Shown here in pieces: positions 2,647-58,284 of a stretch of DNA of 64,000 nt. How positions within the stretch are numbered: the first letter of the stretch is position 1; each line of letters opens with the position of its first letter. The position numbers and the translations under genes were made by a program. The notes under the pieces are model-generated. The model saw nothing but the letters and a program-made list of their open reading frames with translations, was not told where the DNA came from and made no database searches. Source of the DNA: Nitrospira sp. (GTDB taxonomy: Bacteria; Nitrospirota; Nitrospiria; Nitrospirales; Nitrospiraceae); NCBI GenBank assembly GCA_030123605.1, contig CP126123.1, positions 1,364,001 to 1,428,000 of the forward strand. The letters are read 5' to 3'.

Positions 2647-4257
2647 ATGAGAACGTTCGGTATGGCCATATCGTTCGTCTTTGCGGCAGCCCTGCTTTCA
2701 GCGGCACCGGCACCAGCCGTCGAGGAAGGGCAGCTCGTCAAGAAGGACGGCAAGTGGGAGTATGTCTCGACGGAAGACCCCGGACTGAAATACCTCTATC
2801 TCAAAGGCATCATCACACAGCAGGAGTACGAGCGTGGTCTCAAGGTCCTTGAGACGAAAGAATACGCGGCGAAACCGAACTACAGCATCGACGTCAACAA
2901 CGGACTGAACATTCGAGTCGGCTCGAAGTTCTTGCTGAAGATGCGGCTGCTCACTCAGGTGAGATACACCTACCACACCTATAATGAAGGATGGGCGACG
3001 ATCGGTGATTCCAGAAACCCGGAGGTTCTAGGAGGACAGGTCGAATTCAGAGCTGTCAGAAAGCAGAGTAACACCAGTGATTTCACGGTACCCCGAGCCA
3101 GACTCCAATTTCTGGGTTACGCGTTCGATCCCGACCTTCGGTACAATTTTTCTGTCGCCTTTGAGCAAACCGAGTGGGATCAAGAAGGCGGCAGTGGGCG
3201 AGCCAGCATTCTCGATGCGTATGTCTCTTCCTGGCACATTCCCTGGGCGACGATCCAGGTCGGGCAACAGCGGGTGTGGTTCAACCGCGCGCTCATTTCT
3301 TCGATGGCGACGTCGTCTTTTGCAGACAATTTGATCGTGCAGAACGCCTTCGCCGCCAACCAAGTGAACCGACGTGACATCGGCATCAATATCTTGAGCG
3401 ATGAAGATCAGTACAAATTCAACTATGCCGTCGGCGTCTACAATGGCACCGGTCGAAATCTGGCGGAGGAAGGCGTCGCCGTCAGCCAAGCATTACCCAA
3501 CAACAATAGTATTCCCGCTGCCCAGCGGCGCACCTTCAACTATGACACGCGCTTTCTTACAGGCGAAATGATGTACACCGTCCGCCTCCTCTATAAAGTC
3601 TCCGGCAATCCTGGGTATGGCCAAGGAGACATTCTGAATTCCCGCACTCCGCAAATCGCCCTTGCGGCTGGGTATGCGTATAACCCCGCGCAGAACTATC
3701 TCAGCTCGATCCGATCCGATATCGTCGATCGCTACTATCGCCAACAGGTAGCCAAGAACTTCAACGGGAGGCTGCTTGGGGGAGGCGTGTATGATTTCCA
3801 GACCTACGAAGTGGATGTCATCGCTAAGTATCAGGGATGGTCATTACAAGCGGAAGGTTACTATCGTCATCAACGTGTGCGTTCCCATGACTCAGGCACC
3901 ATCGCCTTCGATCCGACAACCGTGCCGATCGGCCCGCAAGTCGAGTTAGGACAGGCCTATGGATGGTACGTCCAGGCCGGCAAATACATCATTCCACGGA
4001 AGCTCGAATTGGCCGTACGCTATGGCTTTATGGATCCGTCAACGAGACAGACGCACGACCTCACCAAGGAATTCGGCGTCGCGCTGAACTACAGCTTCGA
4101 CGGCACATACAACAACCGCCTGATCATCGATTACACGAACTTCACGATCGGCAGCGGAGGCAGTGCTCCCGACCGTGCCCCATTTGAATCGCTGCCGGGA
4201 TTCGGACGCGACCTCGTCGAAAATCGAATCAACGTGCAGTACCAATTCTACTTCTAG
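2647..4257 (+). CDS. Phosphate-selective porin (OprO/OprP family)
   Basis: A 536-residue outer-membrane protein. The ATG at 2647 has GGAGGG 8 bases upstream and opens straight into a signal peptide (MRTFGMAISFVFAAALLSAA, cleavage near APA-VEE). The frame can be extended to 2626 but without a ribosome site. After a short N-terminal segment the protein alternates polar and aromatic residues as in a beta-barrel and ends ...NVQYQFYF, with the terminal aromatic used by the BAM machinery. OprO/P porins pass phosphate, pyrophosphate or other anions. The downstream binding protein suggests an anion that both handle. The specificity-determining lysines cannot be judged by eye. Confidence 0.8.
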   Translation: MRTFGMAISFVFAAALLSAAPAPAVEEGQLVKKDGKWEYVSTEDPGLKYLYLKGIITQQEYERGLKVLETKEYAAKPNYSIDVNNGLNIRVGSKFLLKMRLLTQVRYTYHTYNEGWATIGDSRNPEVLGGQVEFRAVRKQSNTSDFTVPRARLQFLGYAFDPDLRYNFSVAFEQTEWDQEGGSGRASILDAYVSSWHIPWATIQVGQQRVWFNRALISSMATSSFADNLIVQNAFAANQVNRRDIGINILSDEDQYKFNYAVGVYNGTGRNLAEEGVAVSQALPNNNSIPAAQRRTFNYDTRFLTGEMMYTVRLLYKVSGNPGYGQGDILNSRTPQIALAAGYAYNPAQNYLSSIRSDIVDRYYRQQVAKNFNGRLLGGGVYDFQTYEVDVIAKYQGWSLQAEGYYRHQRVRSHDSGTIAFDPTTVPIGPQVELGQAYGWYVQAGKYIIPRKLELAVRYGFMDPSTRQTHDLTKEFGVALNYSFDGTYNNRLIIDYTNFTIGSGGSAPDRAPFESLPGFGRDLVENRINVQYQFYF

Positions 4258-4295
4258 TGCCTCACAGAGGGCAGCGCGAGCATCAGGAGGACCAC

Positions 4296-5120
4296 ATGAC
4301 AGGACGGCATGGTTTCGTTGGAATCGCGGTTTTTTTCAGCGTGCTGATAGGGACCGGCTGGAATCCCTCGCCCGTGCAGGCGCAGCCCGAGACATTAACG
4401 ATCGCTGCCGCGAATAGTCTCAAGGATGCGCTGAGGAAGGTCCTTCCGCTCTTCGAAGCCCAATACCCGGAGAGTACGCTGCGGATCGTGTACGGGCCCT
4501 CGCAAACCCTCCGCACGCAGATCGAACAGGGCGCCCCCGTGGATATCTTCCTCCCATCGTTGTCCGAGGAGATCGATCAGCTTGAAAAAAAGGGGTTGAT
4601 CGTTCAGAACACCAAACGCATTTATGCCGGCACATCCTTGGTCCTCATCGCAGGGGCGACGTTCCCCGCGCCGATCACGTCCATTCAAGAATTGCATACG
4701 ACCCCCGCGCGCCGGATCGCGATCGGAGATCCCAAAACCTCCTCCGTGGGAAAGGTCGCAGCGCAATTCCTCCAATACAGCCGGCTCGAACCGAAACTGA
4801 AATCTCAATACGTCTTCGGCGAACACTCCCGGGCCGTGCTCGATCTCGTCGCAAACGGCGACGCTGAGATCGGCATCGTCTATCGAACGGATGCCGCGTT
4901 GAACAAGAAGGTCCGGATTCTCGATACCGCGCCGATCGAGTCTCACGCGCCGGTCCACTATGGAGTGGCACTCCCCTGGACGGCGAAGAACATCTCGGGA
5001 GCCGACGATTTCGTCAAGTTCTTACTGACGCCGCACATTCAGACACTCCTACAACAATATGGATTCGACCGCGTATCATCCGATGACGGCGCGGCTCGGT
5101 CGCAGGAGGGACAGCGATGA
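4296..5120 (+). CDS. modA: Molybdate-type ABC transporter substrate-binding protein
   Basis: A 274-residue exported binding protein. The ATG at 4296 has AGGAGG five bases upstream. A signal peptide (GIAVFFSVLIGTG... ending VQAQ) precedes LTIAAANSLKDAL, the usual ModA start. Other ModA features follow: the VYGPSQTLRTQIEQGAPVD region, the hinge IAIGDPKTSSVGKVA, and NGDAEIGIVY. No permease (ModB) or ATPase (ModC) gene is nearby, so it is an orphan component in this window. Its stop overlaps the next start (ATGA). Molybdate is the likeliest ligand; tungstate or a related oxyanion is possible. Confidence 0.8.
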   Translation: MTGRHGFVGIAVFFSVLIGTGWNPSPVQAQPETLTIAAANSLKDALRKVLPLFEAQYPESTLRIVYGPSQTLRTQIEQGAPVDIFLPSLSEEIDQLEKKGLIVQNTKRIYAGTSLVLIAGATFPAPITSIQELHTTPARRIAIGDPKTSSVGKVAAQFLQYSRLEPKLKSQYVFGEHSRAVLDLVANGDAEIGIVYRTDAALNKKVRILDTAPIESHAPVHYGVALPWTAKNISGADDFVKFLLTPHIQTLLQQYGFDRVSSDDGAARSQEGQR

Positions 5121-5836
5121 AACCGATTCGAGAACATCGAGGACCATGGGCTGTGCGCGCCATCTCCATGATCATCGGGTTGTCCATCGCCGCCGGCTGC
5201 GCAAGCCCGCCGCTCGTGCCGAAAAAGACGATTCACCAATCGGGATTGAACACCGTGTGGCTGGAACCGGATCCGGACTCGACGTCCAATACCCACCCGA
5301 TCTCCTTGACGCCGACCGAGGTCGGTACGTTACTGCGAGGCGTTCGGTCGTGGGAACGACGCAATGTGCTTCACCGGTTGCTTGCCGGACAGGCCGATAA
5401 GACCAGAACGTTTCGGGACGAAGAAATTGCCATCCTCGCCCCTTCCCTGTCCAAGGCCTTGGCCCAAGCCTCTCCCTCGGAGCGAATCTATTTCCATCTG
5501 AGTCATCCGACCGAACAAGGCAACGAGGAGACGACCACGGGCTGGATTTCGGTGAGAGGCCCCCTTGTGTACCTGTCTCTCAGCGAGGCCCACGACCAGC
5601 ATAGCCCTGGTCCGGACATCAGTAAATATGACCGTCAAATGCCGAACGTGCCGGAGGTCTCACCGGAATTCGACGTGACCTTCGAGCCCGAGGAATTCCT
5701 CGTCAAGGTGAGTTCTGTCGGGCGCCTGTTCGCCCCCGATCAGCGCGAAGAACTGCAGATCCGATACCGCGAAGCCCTGTCTTCCATGCCCATCCAACCG
5801 GGACTGGAGCGAGGAGGAGAACGGCCGCAGCCGTAA
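5117..5836 (+). CDS. Lipoprotein of a two-member paralogous family
   Basis: A 239-residue protein starting in ATGA overlap with modA and preceded by AGGAGG. The signal ends in the lipobox IAAGC, so it should be lipidated at Cys about residue 27. The central pattern LTPTEVGTLLRGVRSWERR then TFRDEEIAILAPSLSKALAQA is clearly shared with the lipoprotein at 32688-33431 (LSHEQVRRLLMGL, MFRDAEIAILVPQLVEALRLA). No enzymatic motif. Function unknown; co-expression with modA is likely from the overlap. Confidence 0.7.
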   Translation: MKPIREHRGPWAVRAISMIIGLSIAAGCASPPLVPKKTIHQSGLNTVWLEPDPDSTSNTHPISLTPTEVGTLLRGVRSWERRNVLHRLLAGQADKTRTFRDEEIAILAPSLSKALAQASPSERIYFHLSHPTEQGNEETTTGWISVRGPLVYLSLSEAHDQHSPGPDISKYDRQMPNVPEVSPEFDVTFEPEEFLVKVSSVGRLFAPDQREELQIRYREALSSMPIQPGLERGGERPQP

Positions 5837-6010
5837 GTCGCATGCGATGGGAAAGGTCTCCGAACCGAATAGACCGGAGAGCGAAACTGTGACAGGTGCG
5901 CATGATTGGTGATACTGTGTCATCGATACATCAGCCGCCGCTGTCGAAAACGAAGGGTGGTTCGGCGGGGCTTGACGCCGAACCTCTCCTTCCGGTTACA
6001 GGAGGACGTC

Positions 6011-49831: not shown

Positions 49832-52800
49832 ATGCGGTCTCCCGGACGCTTCTGTAACGATATCTGGGTGGCGGCGCACAGTTTCATGAGAACCATGAAA
49901 TCTCCCATGTCGTTACCTGAACTGACGCTCAACATCCTCATCATCAACGAACACCCCGACGAGATTAAGCTGATATCTTCCGGCCTGAGGGAATTCTTCT
50001 CCGGCTGCCGCATTGAAGCCTGTTATTCCTCTGAAGAAGCTCTCACCTTCGGTCAGCGGAATGAGTGGCACATCATCCTGATCGATCAGAACTTGAGGCC
50101 GGAAAACGGTCTCAGCATCCTCGGACCTCTCCGCCGCCATGCTCCCAATGCGGCGATCATCCTTCAAACGGATCACAGTGATTCACAGACGGCCGTCCAA
50201 GCGTTACAAAGCGGAGCGGACTTTCTTCTCTTCAAGAATTCACCCGGTTTTCTCACAGAATTACTGTTTTATGTGCAGGAAGCCTTGGAGAAACACGACC
50301 TCCAAATGAAGTTGGATCGGACATTTCAGCGGCATCTGCGGGTCATTGAGACGTTGAGCGACATCCTGTATGAACTCGACCGGGAGGGCCGTTTTGCCTA
50401 CATCAGTCCCGGCGCCGTCGCCCTGCTCGGCTATACCCCCGAAGAACTCGCGGGCCGACACTATTCGATCCTGCTCCCTCCCTTGCAGGAAGGCGCCGGG
50501 CGGTTTCGACTGAATGAACGTCGGGCCGGCAGCCGCTCTGTCCGCAAGCTCGAACTGATGCTCCAACGAAAAACACTTCGCGATCTCTCGACCGCCGCCG
50601 TGACGGTGGAAGTTACAGCCAAGGGGCTCTACGACAACGCCGACCGCTATAGCGGCACTATCGGGGTACTCCGAGATCTTTCGCAGCAGAGGGAACAGCA
50701 AGACCGCCTCGCCCAATTGGAATCCAGGCTTCGAGAAACCGACCGCCAACTCGCCCTCGCTCGAGAGGCCGCCCGGGTCTCTCGCCAACTGCAACAACCT
50801 CTCGCCACGCTCCTACAAGACTCTCAACGACTTCTGAACACAATCCAACAGAGCAAGATCGAACAACATGTCGAAACCATGGTCGCCAAGGCTTCGCAGG
50901 CCAGCCGACTGAGCCGGAGACTGGTACAAACCATCCATGCACAACCCGTCGGGATGGAACTCCTTGCCCTCAATGAAATCCTTCAGACCGTTGTCCGTTC
51001 GATCCGGCATGAACCGAAGGCCACGGAGCTTCTGCTGACATCACGCTTCGCTGCGGATCTTCCGATGATCTTGGGGCGGCCTGACTCGATCGAAGATCTC
51101 GCACGAATCTTGTTCGCCTATGTACGACGACAAGCCTCCGATACTACTACCCCTCTGCATCTCGTCCTGCAGACTGAATCGCTAACCTTGCCGGACAATG
51201 TGGCCAAACCGGGCGACAACACGTTCGGTTCAGGAATCACTCTGACCTATACAACCTTTACCATCCAGGACATTACAGAGGACACGGTGTCTGCCTCGTA
51301 CCGGTGGCCCGATGACCACCGATCGGCCGAAGATTTTCTGCGAGCCCATCGGATCGTCCAGGCCCATGGCGGCTCCATCGAAATCGAGAGCCCTATTGGC
51401 AAGGGATTGACGGTCAGAGTCCGAATTCCGGCTCAAACCGACCTCACGGCTTCTCCGGCCGACCGCGAGAATTCCGAATCTTCAGCACCCACAGACCTTA
51501 CCGCTGGAACCGACGTGCTTCAAGCGGGGCTTTCGAACATCGTCGCACGGCCGCATGACCGGCGTCGTTTCACACGCAGACTGCTTTCACTCCCGGTTGA
51601 ACTCTCCATCGGAAACACGCCCTTCCGAGGTGTCCTACGAAACATCAGCGACGAAGGAGCGCTCCTGACCGTCCAAGACCTGTCTTCCCCCATTCATCTG
51701 CAACCGGCGTACGTCGCGATCAAGACGCCGATCAGTTTTCTGGAACTTCACGGTGTGGTGCATGAACGTCTCGCCGCATCAGCAGAAACGGCGTTTCCCA
51801 CCGTCAGGGACCTCGTCATAATTTTCACGATCCTCGCGGAACGTGACCGGAACGTCCTCCATTCGCTGTTCGACGGCTTGCAGGATGGTTCGGCAACCGT
51901 GACGTTCGAAGCCTTGATACTTCCGTCCTTCACGACTGCAGAGAGCAACTCGGCCGATGCCATCTCATCCGGCGAAATGTCGAACGATCGGCGTGAAACG
52001 GTTCGTCTGGCAGTCGCTCTTCCCGTTCGACTCAGCGGCTTGGAGCAGAAAATGGATCGTCCGGTCGACTTGATCATGAATCTCAGCCGAGACGGAGCCT
52101 GCATCGAACCGTCCGACCATTCCGAATTTCTCGCGGTTCACCAGATTATCCGATTGATACCCGTCGGCCCGACCGCTCATCCCGCCGGTACAGCACCCAC
52201 GGAGGAATCGGAACAGCCCTGGGTCGGGCGTGTCGTCAGGACGAGTCCGCACCGAATCGGCATGCCCCCTCGCCTCATGCCGAAGGGAGAGGAACGATTT
52301 CGTGTTGGAGTGCGCTTTGAGTACCTGTCTCTCGCACAGGAACTTCGACTTCAAAGCGTCATCGCACCAGAAATGTTCACATCACAGGACCTCGCCGAAC
52401 CGATCGCCGATGCCCCCATCGTGACCGTTTCGCACCGTCTTCGAAATCGCGAGGGGCAGGGGATCGTGTTATGCCATGATTCCCCACGACAGGCCGAGGC
52501 GACGAATCTTCCGGTCGTTCTGCTCTCCCCAGGGTACGGAATGACTCAAGGGGCCTATGTGGCCTTCGCCTACTTCCTTGCCGGCTCCGGCCTTCGAGTC
52601 CTGCGGTACGATCACAGTCACCACATCGGCCTCAGCGACGGCGACCCATCACAGACGACGTTCACTTCGCTGGAGGACGATCTCGATACCGTGCTGACCT
52701 ATACACGGAAAGAATGGCCAGGGGCACCCCTCACCCTGTTGGCTCCGGACCTCCTCGGACGAATCGCGCTGCGGCGACAGGACTGGCATAGGATGATTCG

Positions 52801-54115
52801 CCGCCTCATCCTCATCAATCCCACCCTGGATCTCCGGCATTGTCTCACCACCCTTCATCAACGTGATATGCTCCAGGACCATCTCACGGGCATCCGGTTC
52901 GGAACAGGCAACCTCCTGGGACTGCCCCTCAATATCGACCGCTTCTTGAGCGACGCCGTTGCCGCACACTATGTGACAGTAAGTACCCTTCATGAGGATC
53001 TCGCGCACTGTCGCACCGACGTCGTATTTCTCACCAACGGGATGGATACTCCTGAGTCACCGATACCGAGCGCGCCATCGGCACTGTTACAGGACACGGT
53101 GAACCTCCTCGGAACCAGAGGCAGTCGCGTGAGCCTGCCGTCTCTCCTCCTGATTGCAGGGGATGTCGCACCCAAGATTCTGCGCGCGAGTTGGCAACGT
53201 CTCCGGCAGCTGTGTTGTCCGCCCGACACATTACCCTCTCCTCCTCCTGCAGTCCTGCCGACCGCCTCTCGGGCCATCGCCGTTCGCTCTCGATTCGAGC
53301 GTGATCAATTACGCGCTAAGTATCCGGTCGGCGCCACCAGAGAACGATTGTGGACCATTCAAACCGGTCTCACTTCGGCCTTGGATGAACTGCCGGCCTA
53401 TTGGCAATATATCGACCATCTCTACCAACTCTCCCAGCCGCTCGACGAAAGATGTACCTTGCTTGATGTGGGGTGCGGACTCCATTCCTTTTCCCGATTG
53501 CTCCTCTTGAACCTCTCCTACCGCCTCCGCGCTCAGACCTGGCACCACGGCCGCACCATTCGGTACGTGGGAACGGATTTCTCCGTCCCCACACTTCGTG
53601 CGGCACAAGCCGCCATGAATGAGGCCGCAAACCAGATGGATAGTTTGTTTTCTGGGCGCATTTCCGCTCCGACGCCAGCCGCACAGAGCTGGGTGCTCGG
53701 TCGGTCCACGGAAGCCCTTCCCTTTGCAGATCGTTCATTCGATCGCATCGTCGCGAATCTCTCGCTTAGCTTCGCCGCCTCCCCGCTCCATACTCTTCGG
53801 GAACTCGTCCGTGTGCTCCGGCCCGGCGGGAAATTGATCCTCAGCGCCTTCACTCCCACCGCGGATCTGGCGCTCTTGTACCGTCCTCATCTGCGAGAAC
53901 GGGGGATCGACGAATTCACGGGAGACGTCCGCCTGACTTTGAATTATATGGCTCAGATTTGCCAAGCTCTGCGGGTCGGACGACTCCACGCATTCGAAGA
54001 AGACACCTTCATTGCGCGCCTCTCACAAATCACTCCCGTTCCTGCGAAACTCATGCGTGCGCTCTCCGGACAGATTCTCCTCGCCGTCGCTGAAAAACTT
54101 GATTCCTCTGGCTGA
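49832..54115 (+). CDS. Fusion: receiver-PAS-pseudokinase-2xPilZ-LuxD-like hydrolase-methyltransferase
   Basis: A 1427-residue protein. Receiver at about 33-150 (HIILIDQNL, Asp85). PAS at about 165-295 (YISPGAVALLGYTPEELAG). A kinase-like core at about 305-545 has VSRQLQQPLATLL where the phospho-acceptor His should be and lacks clear N and G boxes, so it looks inactive. PilZ1 is near 575 (RRRFTRR, NISDEGAL), PilZ2 near 717 (RRETVR, NLSRDGA), both with the c-di-GMP motif. An alpha/beta hydrolase at about 870-1150 has VLLSPGYGMTQGAYVAFAYF and VLRYDHSHHIGLSDGD, as in LuxD thioesterases. A class I methyltransferase at about 1200-1400 has LLDVGCG, STEALPFADRSFDRIVANL and LRPGGKLIL. The start is uncertain (ATGs at 49832, 49886, 49895, 49907). 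Confidence 0.85.
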   Translation: MRSPGRFCNDIWVAAHSFMRTMKSPMSLPELTLNILIINEHPDEIKLISSGLREFFSGCRIEACYSSEEALTFGQRNEWHIILIDQNLRPENGLSILGPLRRHAPNAAIILQTDHSDSQTAVQALQSGADFLLFKNSPGFLTELLFYVQEALEKHDLQMKLDRTFQRHLRVIETLSDILYELDREGRFAYISPGAVALLGYTPEELAGRHYSILLPPLQEGAGRFRLNERRAGSRSVRKLELMLQRKTLRDLSTAAVTVEVTAKGLYDNADRYSGTIGVLRDLSQQREQQDRLAQLESRLRETDRQLALAREAARVSRQLQQPLATLLQDSQRLLNTIQQSKIEQHVETMVAKASQASRLSRRLVQTIHAQPVGMELLALNEILQTVVRSIRHEPKATELLLTSRFAADLPMILGRPDSIEDLARILFAYVRRQASDTTTPLHLVLQTESLTLPDNVAKPGDNTFGSGITLTYTTFTIQDITEDTVSASYRWPDDHRSAEDFLRAHRIVQAHGGSIEIESPIGKGLTVRVRIPAQTDLTASPADRENSESSAPTDLTAGTDVLQAGLSNIVARPHDRRRFTRRLLSLPVELSIGNTPFRGVLRNISDEGALLTVQDLSSPIHLQPAYVAIKTPISFLELHGVVHERLAASAETAFPTVRDLVIIFTILAERDRNVLHSLFDGLQDGSATVTFEALILPSFTTAESNSADAISSGEMSNDRRETVRLAVALPVRLSGLEQKMDRPVDLIMNLSRDGACIEPSDHSEFLAVHQIIRLIPVGPTAHPAGTAPTEESEQPWVGRVVRTSPHRIGMPPRLMPKGEERFRVGVRFEYLSLAQELRLQSVIAPEMFTSQDLAEPIADAPIVTVSHRLRNREGQGIVLCHDSPRQAEATNLPVVLLSPGYGMTQGAYVAFAYFLAGSGLRVLRYDHSHHIGLSDGDPSQTTFTSLEDDLDTVLTYTRKEWPGAPLTLLAPDLLGRIALRRQDWHRMIRRLILINPTLDLRHCLTTLHQRDMLQDHLTGIRFGTGNLLGLPLNIDRFLSDAVAAHYVTVSTLHEDLAHCRTDVVFLTNGMDTPESPIPSAPSALLQDTVNLLGTRGSRVSLPSLLLIAGDVAPKILRASWQRLRQLCCPPDTLPSPPPAVLPTASRAIAVRSRFERDQLRAKYPVGATRERLWTIQTGLTSALDELPAYWQYIDHLYQLSQPLDERCTLLDVGCGLHSFSRLLLLNLSYRLRAQTWHHGRTIRYVGTDFSVPTLRAAQAAMNEAANQMDSLFSGRISAPTPAAQSWVLGRSTEALPFADRSFDRIVANLSLSFAASPLHTLRELVRVLRPGGKLILSAFTPTADLALLYRPHLRERGIDEFTGDVRLTLNYMAQICQALRVGRLHAFEEDTFIARLSQITPVPAKLMRALSGQILLAVAEKLDSSG

Positions 54116-54220: not shown

Positions 54221-55504
54221 ATGACACTCCACGAACACAGTCGGCACACCTCTATCCTTCCAGGTTCTGTGGATCTCATCAGAATAATCGGTGACTTCGC
54301 CGAGAGGATGGGACAGGCGACGGATCTCACGCGCCTCGGTGACTGTATTCTGGCTGCCATCTCGCAACCCATTCACCTCCCCTCGGCGGCCATCTGGATA
54401 CGAGAGTCCGACCCCCTGCAGTACCGTCTGCTGACATCCATGGGATCACAGGCGCCTTCGGTATTACCCTCCGTATTGCCCGGCGATCATCCCCTCGTTA
54501 CAAGCCTTTCGAAGACGATGCACATGCTCCGATACGACCAGCAACCTTCCTCCACGACCGACGCGGCCATGGCTACGGCGCGTGCAGCAGTCTGCTTTCC
54601 GCTTCAAAACCACACCGGCTTGCTCGGTCTGTGTACCTTCGGCCCGATCGACAAGGACGTTCGTTGGGACGAAGAAGCGTTGGTGGTCGTCGAGACGATC
54701 GCACGTATCGCCTGCAATGCCTTGACCCATCACATGACTCAGGACGATCTGCGCCGGGCCGCCACGTTGATGAGACGGACCGATCGCCTGCGCTCGCTGG
54801 AAATCATGGCGGGCGGATTTGCCCATGAAATCCGTAACCCGCTCACCTCGATCAAGACCTTTGTGCAGTTGGCTCCGCAACGCCAGCACGATCCGGTGTT
54901 CATCGAGGAATTCAGCCGCCATGCCATCGAAGATGTCCATCGCATCGAAGGCTTGCTCCACGAGATCCTCGACTATGCCGGCTACATGGCTCCGCAACCG
55001 ACCGACGTGGACCTCAACGAACTCGTCGCGTCCTCCCTGTGTTTCGTGTCGGCCACGGCGTCGCAGCGCGGGATCCGCCTGCGGACAGTCCTGGCACCAC
55101 GGTTGCCCCTCCTCTCGCTCGATCGTCAACAGATCAAGCAGGTTCTCCTGAACCTCTTGCTGAACGCGCTGGAGGCCATGCCGGACGGCGAAGGGAGTAT
55201 TTGTGTGCGGACGCGCGTGATCCCGCGTGGCGGCGGCACGACGTGGGTACAGATGCAGGTCGAGGACCAGGGATGCGGCATTGCGCCGGATCACTTGGAC
55301 CATATCTTCGATCCGTTTTTTACGACGAAGCATTCCAACAGCGCTGGCAACGGCTCGGGCCTGGGCCTGACGACCGCCCACCAGATCGTCCGCGAACATG
55401 GAGGCGAGCTGTCGGTCGAAAGTCGAGTCGGTGCCGGAGCCACGTTTTCCGTGAATCTTCCCGTACCGGATGAGCGAACCACAGCCTCAGCAGCATTGGA
55501 GTAA
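54221..55504 (+). CDS. Cytoplasmic GAF-type sensor histidine kinase (NtrB-like)
   Basis: A 427-residue soluble kinase. A GAF-like sensor spans about 20-170. HisKA has MAGGFAHEIRNPLTSI (His202). The ATPase has QVLLNLLLNALEAM, VEDQGCGI, FDPFFTTK and GSGLGLTTAHQIV. No TM segments. Its stop is one base before the sigma54 activator, so the two form a pair. The signal is unknown; GAF often binds small molecules. Confidence 0.9.
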   Translation: MTLHEHSRHTSILPGSVDLIRIIGDFAERMGQATDLTRLGDCILAAISQPIHLPSAAIWIRESDPLQYRLLTSMGSQAPSVLPSVLPGDHPLVTSLSKTMHMLRYDQQPSSTTDAAMATARAAVCFPLQNHTGLLGLCTFGPIDKDVRWDEEALVVVETIARIACNALTHHMTQDDLRRAATLMRRTDRLRSLEIMAGGFAHEIRNPLTSIKTFVQLAPQRQHDPVFIEEFSRHAIEDVHRIEGLLHEILDYAGYMAPQPTDVDLNELVASSLCFVSATASQRGIRLRTVLAPRLPLLSLDRQQIKQVLLNLLLNALEAMPDGEGSICVRTRVIPRGGGTTWVQMQVEDQGCGIAPDHLDHIFDPFFTTKHSNSAGNGSGLGLTTAHQIVREHGGELSVESRVGAGATFSVNLPVPDERTTASAALE

Positions 55505-55505
55505 C

Positions 55506-56918
55506 ATGAAAAAACGGGTACTGCTCGTCGATGACGAACCGCGGGTTCGCGCATCGTTGAAGACGGTGTTGGAACCGACGTACGAAGTTCTTGAAGCGGT
55601 CGACGCCGCAGAGGGGCTTCAGATTTTTAAGCGTGAATCCCCCAACCTGGTCCTCCTGGACGTAATCCTACCGGGGACGGACGGCCTGACGACGCTTCAA
55701 ACGATGCGCAGCGAAGATCGCACCGTACCGGTCATCATGCTGACCGGCACCAAATCGGTCAAGACGGCCGTGGACGCCATGAAGTCTGGCGCAGCCGACT
55801 ATCTGTCCAAGCCGTTCGACGTGGAGGAACTACGGATCGTCATCGACCGCACGCTGAGCAAACAAGAATTGGAGCAGGAAGTCCGGCAGCTGCGAGCCCA
55901 GGTGGTGCAGCGGTATGCCTTTCACAACCTGATCGGAAAAAGCCCGTCCATGCAGGAAATCTACGCCAAGATCGAGCAGGTGGCCGACAGCCGCACCACC
56001 GTCCTGGTCACCGGCGAGAGCGGAACCGGAAAAGAACTCGTCGCCAAGGCCATCCACTATAACAGTGCGCGGCGAGAACGCCCGTTCGTGGCGCTCAATT
56101 GCGCCGCGTTGCCGGAGACGCTCATCGAGAGCGAGCTGTTCGGGCACGAAAAAGGTTCCTTCACCGATGCAACGGCCCGACGGGTGGGGCAATTCGAACT
56201 CGCCCACAGCGGGACACTCTTCCTGGACGAAATCGGCGACCTCACTCCGGCGACGCAGGCCAAGCTGTTACGCGTGTTACAGGAACGCGAGTTCATCCGG
56301 GTCGGAGGGGTACAACCCATCAAAGTCGACGTACGGATCGTCGCCGCCACCAACAAAAATCTCGATGAACTGGTTCGGAAAGGCCTTTTCCGAGAGGACC
56401 TCTATTACCGCATCAACGTCATCGCCCTGTACCTGCCTCCCTTGCGGGAGCGGGGCGAAGACATCGCTCTCCTTGCCAAACACTTTCTCGCCAAGCGGAT
56501 CGAAGAGGAGAAACGCCCTCCTCAAGAATTCACCAAGGAATCGTTGGAATTGATCTCACGTTATCCCTGGCCCGGCAACGTGCGCGAGATGGAAAACATC
56601 ATCGAGCAGGCCTTCATTTGGTCGAAGGGCTCCGACGTGATCACTCCTGAGCATTTACCGACGATCCTCCGGACCGACACCAGGTCGACCTCCCTGCGGG
56701 ACGATACGCTGGCAGGACGGCTCTCCCTGGAAAAAGCCGTGATGGAATTCGAACGCGACATCATTTTGGACGCACTCAAGCGCACCAATTACGTCCAAAC
56801 TCACGCGGCGACGATGTTGGGGATCAGCCGGCGCATGCTGAAATATCGCATGGATACCTTGGGGATCAGCAGACCCGATCACGAGCCGAATCCTGATCCT
56901 TCACTGACTCAGGAATGA
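55506..56918 (+). CDS. NtrC-family sigma54 activator with GSFTDA loop
   Basis: A 470-residue regulator with GGAG before ATG 55506. Receiver with Asp52 (LVLLDVILPG), AAA+ Walker A GESGTGKE, Walker B TLFLDEIG and C-terminal Fis-type HTH (TNYVQTHAATMLGISRR). The sigma54-contact loop near residue 217 reads GSFTDA instead of GAFTGA; the critical Thr is kept. Partner of the kinase at 54221. Confidence 0.9.
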   Translation: MKKRVLLVDDEPRVRASLKTVLEPTYEVLEAVDAAEGLQIFKRESPNLVLLDVILPGTDGLTTLQTMRSEDRTVPVIMLTGTKSVKTAVDAMKSGAADYLSKPFDVEELRIVIDRTLSKQELEQEVRQLRAQVVQRYAFHNLIGKSPSMQEIYAKIEQVADSRTTVLVTGESGTGKELVAKAIHYNSARRERPFVALNCAALPETLIESELFGHEKGSFTDATARRVGQFELAHSGTLFLDEIGDLTPATQAKLLRVLQEREFIRVGGVQPIKVDVRIVAATNKNLDELVRKGLFREDLYYRINVIALYLPPLRERGEDIALLAKHFLAKRIEEEKRPPQEFTKESLELISRYPWPGNVREMENIIEQAFIWSKGSDVITPEHLPTILRTDTRSTSLRDDTLAGRLSLEKAVMEFERDIILDALKRTNYVQTHAATMLGISRRMLKYRMDTLGISRPDHEPNPDPSLTQE

Positions 56919-57129: not shown

Positions 57130-58284
57130 ATGGGTACCCATACGTCCGATGAACACACGGTCCATAAGCCGTCGGTTCTAGTCGTCGATGATGAAACAGG
57201 TCCTAGGGACGCGCTCAAGGTCATTCTCCGTCCCTTTTTCACGATCCATTCCGCCGACAACGCCAAATCCGCCCTGCAAGTGTTGAAAGATCGGCACATC
57301 GATCTCATCACCCTCGATCAAAAGTTGCCCGATCGCCAGGGCCTCGACCTGCTCCAGGATATCAAGCAGGACCACGCAGACATCGAAGTCATCATCATCA
57401 CCGGCTATGGAAGTTTGAAGTCCGCGATGGAGGGGATCAGACACGGTGCGGCAGGATACCTACTCAAACCCTTCAACGTCACCGAACTCCTCACCTTGAT
57501 CAACCAGACGCTGGAAAAGAAACAGCGCTTGGATTACTTGCGATCGTTCTTGAAGACATCGACGGCTCTATGGGGGACGGAGCAGGAGGTGACCCAAGCC
57601 TGGAAGGACGTACGGTCCAATTATTTCGCCATCGGCAAATCTTCTGCCGATACGACAGCCGGCACGGGCGACGTCGCAGCCTTGATCCCTTTGCTCTCCG
57701 ATCTGCTCGAAGCCAAGGATCGTCAACTCTTGAATCACAGCAGTCGGGTCAGTTTCTATGCCTCACTCCTCGCCAACCAGTTGCACCTGCCCATCACGGA
57801 ACAGAAAGCGCTGGCGTTGGGAGCGTTCCTCCACGACATCGGCAAGATCAGCCTGTCCGACTACAAGTATTCAGCGGATGATGACGATGACTGCGAGCGG
57901 AACAGCGCCCGCATCAAAGACCATTCCGAGGCCGGCGCCCGCATGCTGCTGCCGCTGGGTTTTCCGGCAGAGGTGGGACAAATCGTCGCGTACCATCACG
58001 AACGATTCGACGGGATCCGCAATCCTCAGGGGTTACGGGGAGAAGGGATCCCCCTCTTGGCACGCATCGTCGCCATTGCGCAAGCGTTCGATAACCTGAC
58101 AGTCGATATTCCAGGACACCAACCGCTCTCCATCGACGAGGCGATTCGGCAAATTACCCTGCAAGCCCATACCGCCTTCGACCCGACGCTGACGTCGCTG
58201 TTCGCCCGCGTCGTGCAGGAATGTAGATCCTCCCTTCCCGCTCTGGCGATTGCGACCACTCCGAGGACGACGACAGACCCCTAG
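57130..58284 (+). CDS. Response regulator with HD-GYP-like output, degenerate
   Basis: A 384-residue protein, GAGGAG upstream. The receiver (1-130, Asp63) includes ITLDQKLPD, IIITGYGS and LLKPF. An HD domain (about 190-350) has HSSRVSFYASLLA, LHDIGKI and AYHHERFDG. The phosphodiesterase motif HHExxDGxGYP reads HHERFDGIRNP here and the later IADxFDA reads IAQAFDN. So the HD metal site is kept but the GYP and a metal-ligand Asp are changed. It may hydrolyse another substrate or only bind. Its stop overlaps recN's stop. Confidence 0.85.
   Translation: MGTHTSDEHTVHKPSVLVVDDETGPRDALKVILRPFFTIHSADNAKSALQVLKDRHIDLITLDQKLPDRQGLDLLQDIKQDHADIEVIIITGYGSLKSAMEGIRHGAAGYLLKPFNVTELLTLINQTLEKKQRLDYLRSFLKTSTALWGTEQEVTQAWKDVRSNYFAIGKSSADTTAGTGDVAALIPLLSDLLEAKDRQLLNHSSRVSFYASLLANQLHLPITEQKALALGAFLHDIGKISLSDYKYSADDDDDCERNSARIKDHSEAGARMLLPLGFPAEVGQIVAYHHERFDGIRNPQGLRGEGIPLLARIVAIAQAFDNLTVDIPGHQPLSIDEAIRQITLQAHTAFDPTLTSLFARVVQECRSSLPALAIATTPRTTTDP

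Follow-up and report, generated by a model that had tools for sequence, protein, structure and literature searches.

We analyzed a 64,000-nucleotide stretch of a Nitrospira sp. genome (the window: GenBank assembly GCA_030123605.1, contig CP126123.1, positions 1,364,001 to 1,428,000) for the function of one gene that encodes a 1427-residue protein, here called the giant. Its domains are, in order, a receiver (REC), PAS, a degenerate histidine kinase core, two PilZ domains, a LuxD-like alpha/beta hydrolase (ABH) and a class I methyltransferase (MT). A first-pass annotation, made from the DNA letters alone, had proposed this order and read it as two enzymes under phospho-relay, small-molecule and cyclic di-GMP (c-di-GMP) control. 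Pfam matches and orthologues confirm the order. The claim of two controlled enzymes did not hold: the catalytic triad of the hydrolase is replaced, and the methyltransferase is altered at residues that are invariant in intact relatives. We consider it probable that the giant is a pseudoenzyme regulator that takes c-di-GMP and phosphorylation as inputs and works with the soluble histidine kinase and the sigma-54 activator encoded next to it.

The hydrolase domain retains its predicted fold and has lost its triad

Pfam places Hydrolase_4/Acyl_transf_2 (LuxD) at residues 865–1015 of the giant (PF02273, 33.2 bits against a cut-off of 20.3), and NCBIfam NF052253 scores 34.6 bits, under its 420-bit cut-off. 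A profile of 19 intact relatives matches LuxD 1THT (E 1.3e-37) with S114, D211 and H241 aligned, which we take to be the catalytic triad of LuxD. The nucleophile position of the giant sits in the sequence LAPDLLGR, and this Asp is also found in 23 of 24 aligned giants. In the genus orthologues the acid region has an insertion and the conserved Asp is gone, while no His is conserved in the region of the base. Because none of the genus orthologues retains the nucleophile, the acid or the base, the hydrolase of the giant, as judged from its sequence, cannot use a Ser-His-Asp mechanism. Across 121 non-redundant frames containing both domains (ABH-MT), the triad is present in 67 (intact forms, including L166, scored after a one-column shift was allowed) and absent in 54 (dead forms), where the nucleophile position holds Asp, Asn or Gly.

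Searched against the PDB, the predicted structure of residues 561–1427 (mean pLDDT 77.9) matches LuxD 1THT best (Z 25.2, 275 aligned); the search tested model residues 283–575, the hydrolase, well, and the domain is predicted still to fold as LuxD. Across the genus ABH-N shows 71% identity and a ratio of nonsynonymous to synonymous substitution rates (dN/dS) of 0.13–0.31 in six pairs, and the domain is therefore not simply decaying. All domains of the giant are under purifying selection (per-domain dN/dS 0.00–0.44 in six pairs, with one value of 0.74 in PilZ 2), and identity across the genus is 70–81% in REC, PAS, the dimerization-helix (DHp) region, PilZ 1, ABH-N and MT.

Regulatory domains of the giant

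The phospho-acceptor D85 of the receiver is kept, together with T113 and K135, in all 27 genus orthologues that cover the domain. Both PilZ domains carry the RxxxR and (D/N)xSxxG motifs, so that the earlier identification of two c-di-GMP modules stands at the motif level, and both Arg pairs are kept in 24/24 aligned giants. On the basis of these motifs we infer that the PilZ domains bind c-di-GMP.

At the position of the H-box His the giant has R318 (VSRQLQQPL), which is invariant in full-length genus orthologues. The kinase core is called degenerate because its HATPase_c match, at 13.9 bits, falls far under the cut-off of 26.4. No N or G1 box was seen in the alignment of the ATPase-like region, which has the lowest conservation among the folded domains save PilZ 2. 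The loss of the H-box His across the genus and the sub-threshold HATPase_c score agree with the pseudokinase proposed at first pass. The structure model of the N-terminal part (mean pLDDT 58.8) is usable for REC and PAS and not for the ATPase-like region.

Intact relatives are paired with membrane-bound kinases

Of the 20 giants of the family for which the downstream sequence was long enough, 19 are followed by a kinase of ~425–500 residues and a receiver protein. In the cases compared, homology links this kinase to the C-terminal part of seven-transmembrane (7TM) kinases, the sigma-54 regulator is 69–93% identical to that of the window, and a REC-HD gene then follows. The layout of ABH-MT gene, kinase, sigma-54 response regulator and REC-HD gene is common to intact and dead forms. 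The same genome also encodes an intact PilZ-hydrolase-methyltransferase paralogue (830-residue frame, PilZ 2 partly deleted), and the best own-genome relative of the window's kinase is the 7TM kinase adjoining this paralogue (336 bits; next 145). By this comparison, the giant with its kinase and the paralogue with its 7TM kinase descend from one pair.

A HisKA_7TM kinase lies directly after, or is fused to, the intact ABH-MT in 64 of 65 testable loci, which were retrieved by ABH-MT sequence only. The 67 intact forms comprise 62 directly followed by the kinase, 2 fused to it, 2 at contig ends and 1 (L171) without it; the 54 dead forms comprise 51 without it, 2 at contig ends and 1 (L144) with it behind an inserted gene. 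For 32 of the dead loci of the genus, coverage extended only ~1.5 kb downstream, and every kinase there that was read to its end was of the short soluble type. Eight genomes from three further genera (g2, g6 and g10) have a dead giant, no intact form and no 7TM kinase. The kinase beside intact forms is a 7TM-GAF histidine kinase, and next to the Nitrospira intact paralogue it has two successive 7TM regions (L104:2128–5172; L118:11699–14734). In L077 / L143 (8906–13903) the intact protein and the 7TM kinase form one 1666-residue frame, a Rosetta-stone link between enzyme and kinase.

Intact ABH-MT relatives occur in Nitrospirota and five other phyla, with members in Nitrospinota, Opitutaceae and Margulisiibacteriota. 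Those of the sister family carry one PilZ-like region, and ABH-MT alone (549–584 residues) is found in a genome of family f37, in Omnitrophota and in a deltaproteobacterial metagenome-assembled genome (MAG). One MAG contig titled Nitrospira japonica (L109 / L102) places in family f37, and its name is probably wrong. The Omnitrophota ABH-MT neighborhood holds a PlsC acyltransferase, an acyl-acyl carrier protein (ACP) reductase-like protein, FabA- and FabG-like genes, ketosynthases, the 7TM kinase and a receiver; in L112:7820–17468 and L110 the series is acyltransferase, cyclase-acyl-ACP reductase, ABH-MT, 7TM kinase, receiver, two ketosynthases and FabA/FabG. A search of the window's genome for the acyl-ACP reductase of this cluster gave no match. 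The first-pass suggestion of an acyl or methyl-ester signal suits these relatives, with their 7TM kinases and, in some, fatty-acid or polyketide-type clusters, better than it suits the giant.

The 7TM kinases also have other partners. In two genomes of the family, with no ABH-MT adjacent, the kinase is preceded by a PilZ-like acyl-ACP-reductase protein in G040 (L196:6917–8713) and by a PilZ-like CADD/TENA-type protein in G042 (L195:4495–5775), the PilZ assignment in both being weak or made by eye. In L144 the inserted gene, at 4243–5841, encodes a PilZ-KAS III (FabH-like) protein and is possibly a replacement partner enzyme; one reference, L187, covered the end of a giant instead of a kinase and was set aside in that comparison.

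From these neighborhoods, the intact relatives are possibly pairs of synthase and 7TM receptor. Extended further, the giant would be a retired signal synthase turned receptor or regulator, and the intact relatives an undescribed, multi-phylum and largely c-di-GMP-gated lipid-signaling family, in which interchangeable acyl-processing enzymes (LuxD-like hydrolase-methyltransferase, PilZ-KAS III, acyl-ACP reductase, CADD/TENA-type) are paired with HisKA_7TM kinases. We put this forward tentatively, as a conjecture that is more apt to fail than to hold. The ancestry can also be read otherwise, in a way compatible with a regulatory giant: the intact pairs would be membrane-lipid remodeling enzymes with a membrane-stress sensor, and the giant a regulator derived from lipid homeostasis. 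LuxD-type enzymes generally act on acyl-ACP, and there is no known ligand, which is consistent with remodeling; however, the partners of the 7TM kinases vary by lineage as they would if ligand makers had been swapped, although that pattern is not proof. We regard remodeling as a possible but doubtful origin.

The methyltransferase domain and enzymatic alternatives

A rival reading takes the methyltransferase to be the working enzyme of the giant. In the genus the domain keeps D1212, G1214, G1216 and D1249, is 74% identical and evolves with a dN/dS of 0.10–0.28, and it passes its Pfam cut-off (44.7 vs 21.2 bits). All this would fit a c-di-GMP-regulated methyltransferase in which the dead hydrolase serves as a substrate-binding or scaffold domain and PilZ, REC and PAS regulate the methylation of a small molecule, acyl or other. 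However, all 67 intact relatives have the third Gly of motif I, the Asp after strand 2 and a later invariant Lys, and in the genus giants the corresponding residues are His (H1218), Asp (one Glu) and Thr (T1341; one Arg). Some class I enzymes do not depend on the third Gly. Giants of sister genera, which share the architecture, frequently carry Gly, Glu or Arg in place of the Asp that binds the ribose of S-adenosylmethionine (SAM), and their motif I is sometimes broken; because of these losses, methylation is not the shared function of the giants. A regulated methyltransferase is thus an unlikely reading, though one with an appreciable chance for the window's protein.

The hydrolase could instead have switched to an Asp nucleophile, the chemistry of haloalkane dehalogenases and epoxide hydrolases. 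The Asp is invariant in the 29 genus orthologues and present in nearly all of the aligned giants, and one relative (L079) combines it with a retained Asp and His. That mechanism nevertheless requires a His base, which is missing in the giants, and the Asn or Gly found at the nucleophile position in relatives resembles decay, making the switch improbable. Two active enzymes under phospho-relay, PAS and c-di-GMP control are very improbable: both folds do share one frame under purifying selection, but nucleophile, acid and base are replaced in all giants.

A model for the giant as a regulator

The regulator reading can be laid out as a history. The C-terminal half of the giant would derive from a PilZ-controlled acyl hydrolase-methyltransferase. 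Intact genes of this kind immediately precede one for a 7TM-GAF histidine kinase, and the two products may make and sense an acyl-derived signal. Along the lineage of the giant the hydrolase triad would have been lost, the methyltransferase would have drifted, and the neighboring kinase would have lost its membrane sensor, while the protein gained or kept a receiver, PAS, a dimerization-helix region and two putative c-di-GMP-binding modules. The giant would most likely act on the NtrC-type sigma-54 activator and on the adjacent soluble kinase, which it presumably contacts, and would combine phosphorylation with c-di-GMP and, perhaps, an acyl or SAM-type ligand that it binds. Sequence comparison establishes the residue losses and retentions, the conserved operon and the common descent of the gene pairs; c-di-GMP binding, contact with the kinase, ligand binding and any signal are extrapolated from it.

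Four observations weigh against this reading. The H-box His is retained in several giants of another genus. The methyltransferase of the window's protein could still bind SAM or act, since D1212 and D1249 are kept. On a tree of 75 rows, from which the triad columns were left out and in which three lineages were unresolved, loss of the triad needs one change only; triad loss and 7TM loss therefore coincide as a single transition, with no statistical correlation. Lastly, in L144 the nucleophile is lost yet the 7TM kinase stays in the operon, behind the PilZ-KAS III gene.

Gene extent, distribution and neighboring genes

The 1427-codon frame noted at first pass is unbroken and real. The gene is present in 29/29 genus genomes, as one full-length frame in 27 (52–89% identical) and divided over two contigs in the other two (G020 and G024); the genome carrying the giant is itself a single contig of 4.32 Mb. 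Matches were found in 108 of 147 genomes of a family survey, many of them full-length frames of 1390–1460 residues at 30–48% identity in other Nitrospiraceae genera. A search for the same architecture across a phylum sample found full-length forms, all restricted to the family Nitrospiraceae. A fusion created by sequencing or assembly is ruled out by the 27 full-length genus orthologues and the many in the family. The domains are not always separate proteins in homologues, as the first-pass annotation had allowed they might be; fused forms predominate, with a single adjacent split pair (L076) that is possibly an intermediate. The true start is probably near Met26 (49907), because the first ~18–25 residues show no conservation in the orthologue alignment.

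Up to 450 bp upstream of giant orthologues contained no match to the sigma-54 promoter consensus. In many of them a short inverted repeat, TCCC-N-GGGA, precedes the conserved start by ~60–120 bp. At L084:1200–3428 there is a 743-residue REC-PAS-PilZ-methyltransferase without a hydrolase domain. The REC-HD protein of the window has the HD residues, with GIRNPQGL in place of the GYP motif of HD-GYP. Coordinates are collected in Table 1.

Table 1. The giant gene, its domains and the genes downstream, in window coordinates.
Feature	Coordinates	Strand	Remarks
Giant gene	49832..54115	+	1427 codons, 1427 residues; no internal stop
Receiver domain	49934..50239	+	PF00072, 52.2 bits, residues 35–136
PAS domain	50339..50677	+	PF00989, 33.4 bits, residues 170–282
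DHp-like helical region	50702..50956	+	H-box His absent; 78% mean identity in genus
Degenerate ATPase-like region	50957..51466	+	45% identity; low confidence in structure model
PilZ 1	51557..51931	+	RxxxR (R578, R582) and NxSxxG (N604, S606, G609) kept in 29/29 genus rows
PilZ 2	51980..52381	+	RxxxR (R721, R725), N750 and G755 kept in 29/29; S752 in 24/29
LuxD-like alpha/beta hydrolase fold (ABH)	52415..53236	+	catalytic triad lost
D973, nucleophile position (Ser114 of LuxD)	52748..52750	+	Asp in 29/29 genus orthologues
Class I methyltransferase (MT)	53372..54112	+	Methyltransf_11, 44.7 vs 21.2 bits, residues 1211–1337
Soluble histidine kinase	54221..55504	+	no transmembrane segment; 45% identical to C-terminal part of the intact paralogue's 7TM kinase
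NtrC-type sigma-54 response regulator	55470..56918	+	AAA part 71–82% identical to regulator of intact operons
REC-HD protein, conserved fourth gene	57130..58284	+	HD-GYP-like, GYP motif altered

Significance and comparison with known systems

On the regulator reading, what appeared to be a bifunctional enzyme would document the conversion of enzyme to regulator within one operon, with intermediates preserved in relatives. The pairing of acyl-processing enzymes, many with PilZ, and 7TM kinases is conserved in Nitrospirota, Omnitrophota, Opitutaceae and others. If such pairs make and sense lipid signals, nitrite-oxidizing Nitrospira would have a signaling route tied to c-di-GMP and sigma-54, and this route, if real, would be relevant to biofilm and floc formation. 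A literature search, mostly without subscription journals, returned no PilZ receptor described as having its domains in this order and no paper on the architecture of the giant or on LuxD-methyltransferase/7TM pairs.

The quorum-sensing genes phcBSRQ of Ralstonia encode a methyltransferase (phcB), a kinase (phcS), a REC plus histidine kinase protein (phcR) and a REC protein (phcQ); 3-OH MAME is made by PhcB and sensed by PhcS (PMC8578825). The resemblance to the intact relatives, which also have a methyltransferase gene beside a sensor kinase and receiver proteins, is an analogy. However, a LuxD domain, PilZ and a sigma-54 activator are not named for Phc, and the giant's own kinase is soluble; a membrane-sensor kinase adjoins the intact relatives.

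Both PilZ domains of the giant keep the RxxxR and (D/N)xSxxG motifs of PilZ c-di-GMP receptors. Like RetS in partnerships of the RetS/GacS type, the giant resembles a kinase in degenerate form and might influence the kinase encoded next to it. It differs from RetS, a membrane hybrid kinase, in carrying pseudo-hydrolase, methyltransferase and PilZ domains. With the LuxD myristoyl-ACP thioesterase (1THT, PF02273) the hydrolase of the giant shares fold and sequence family, and S114, D211 and H241 are kept in the intact relatives, whereas in the giant all three are gone and the hydrolase is joined to PilZ, REC, PAS and methyltransferase domains.

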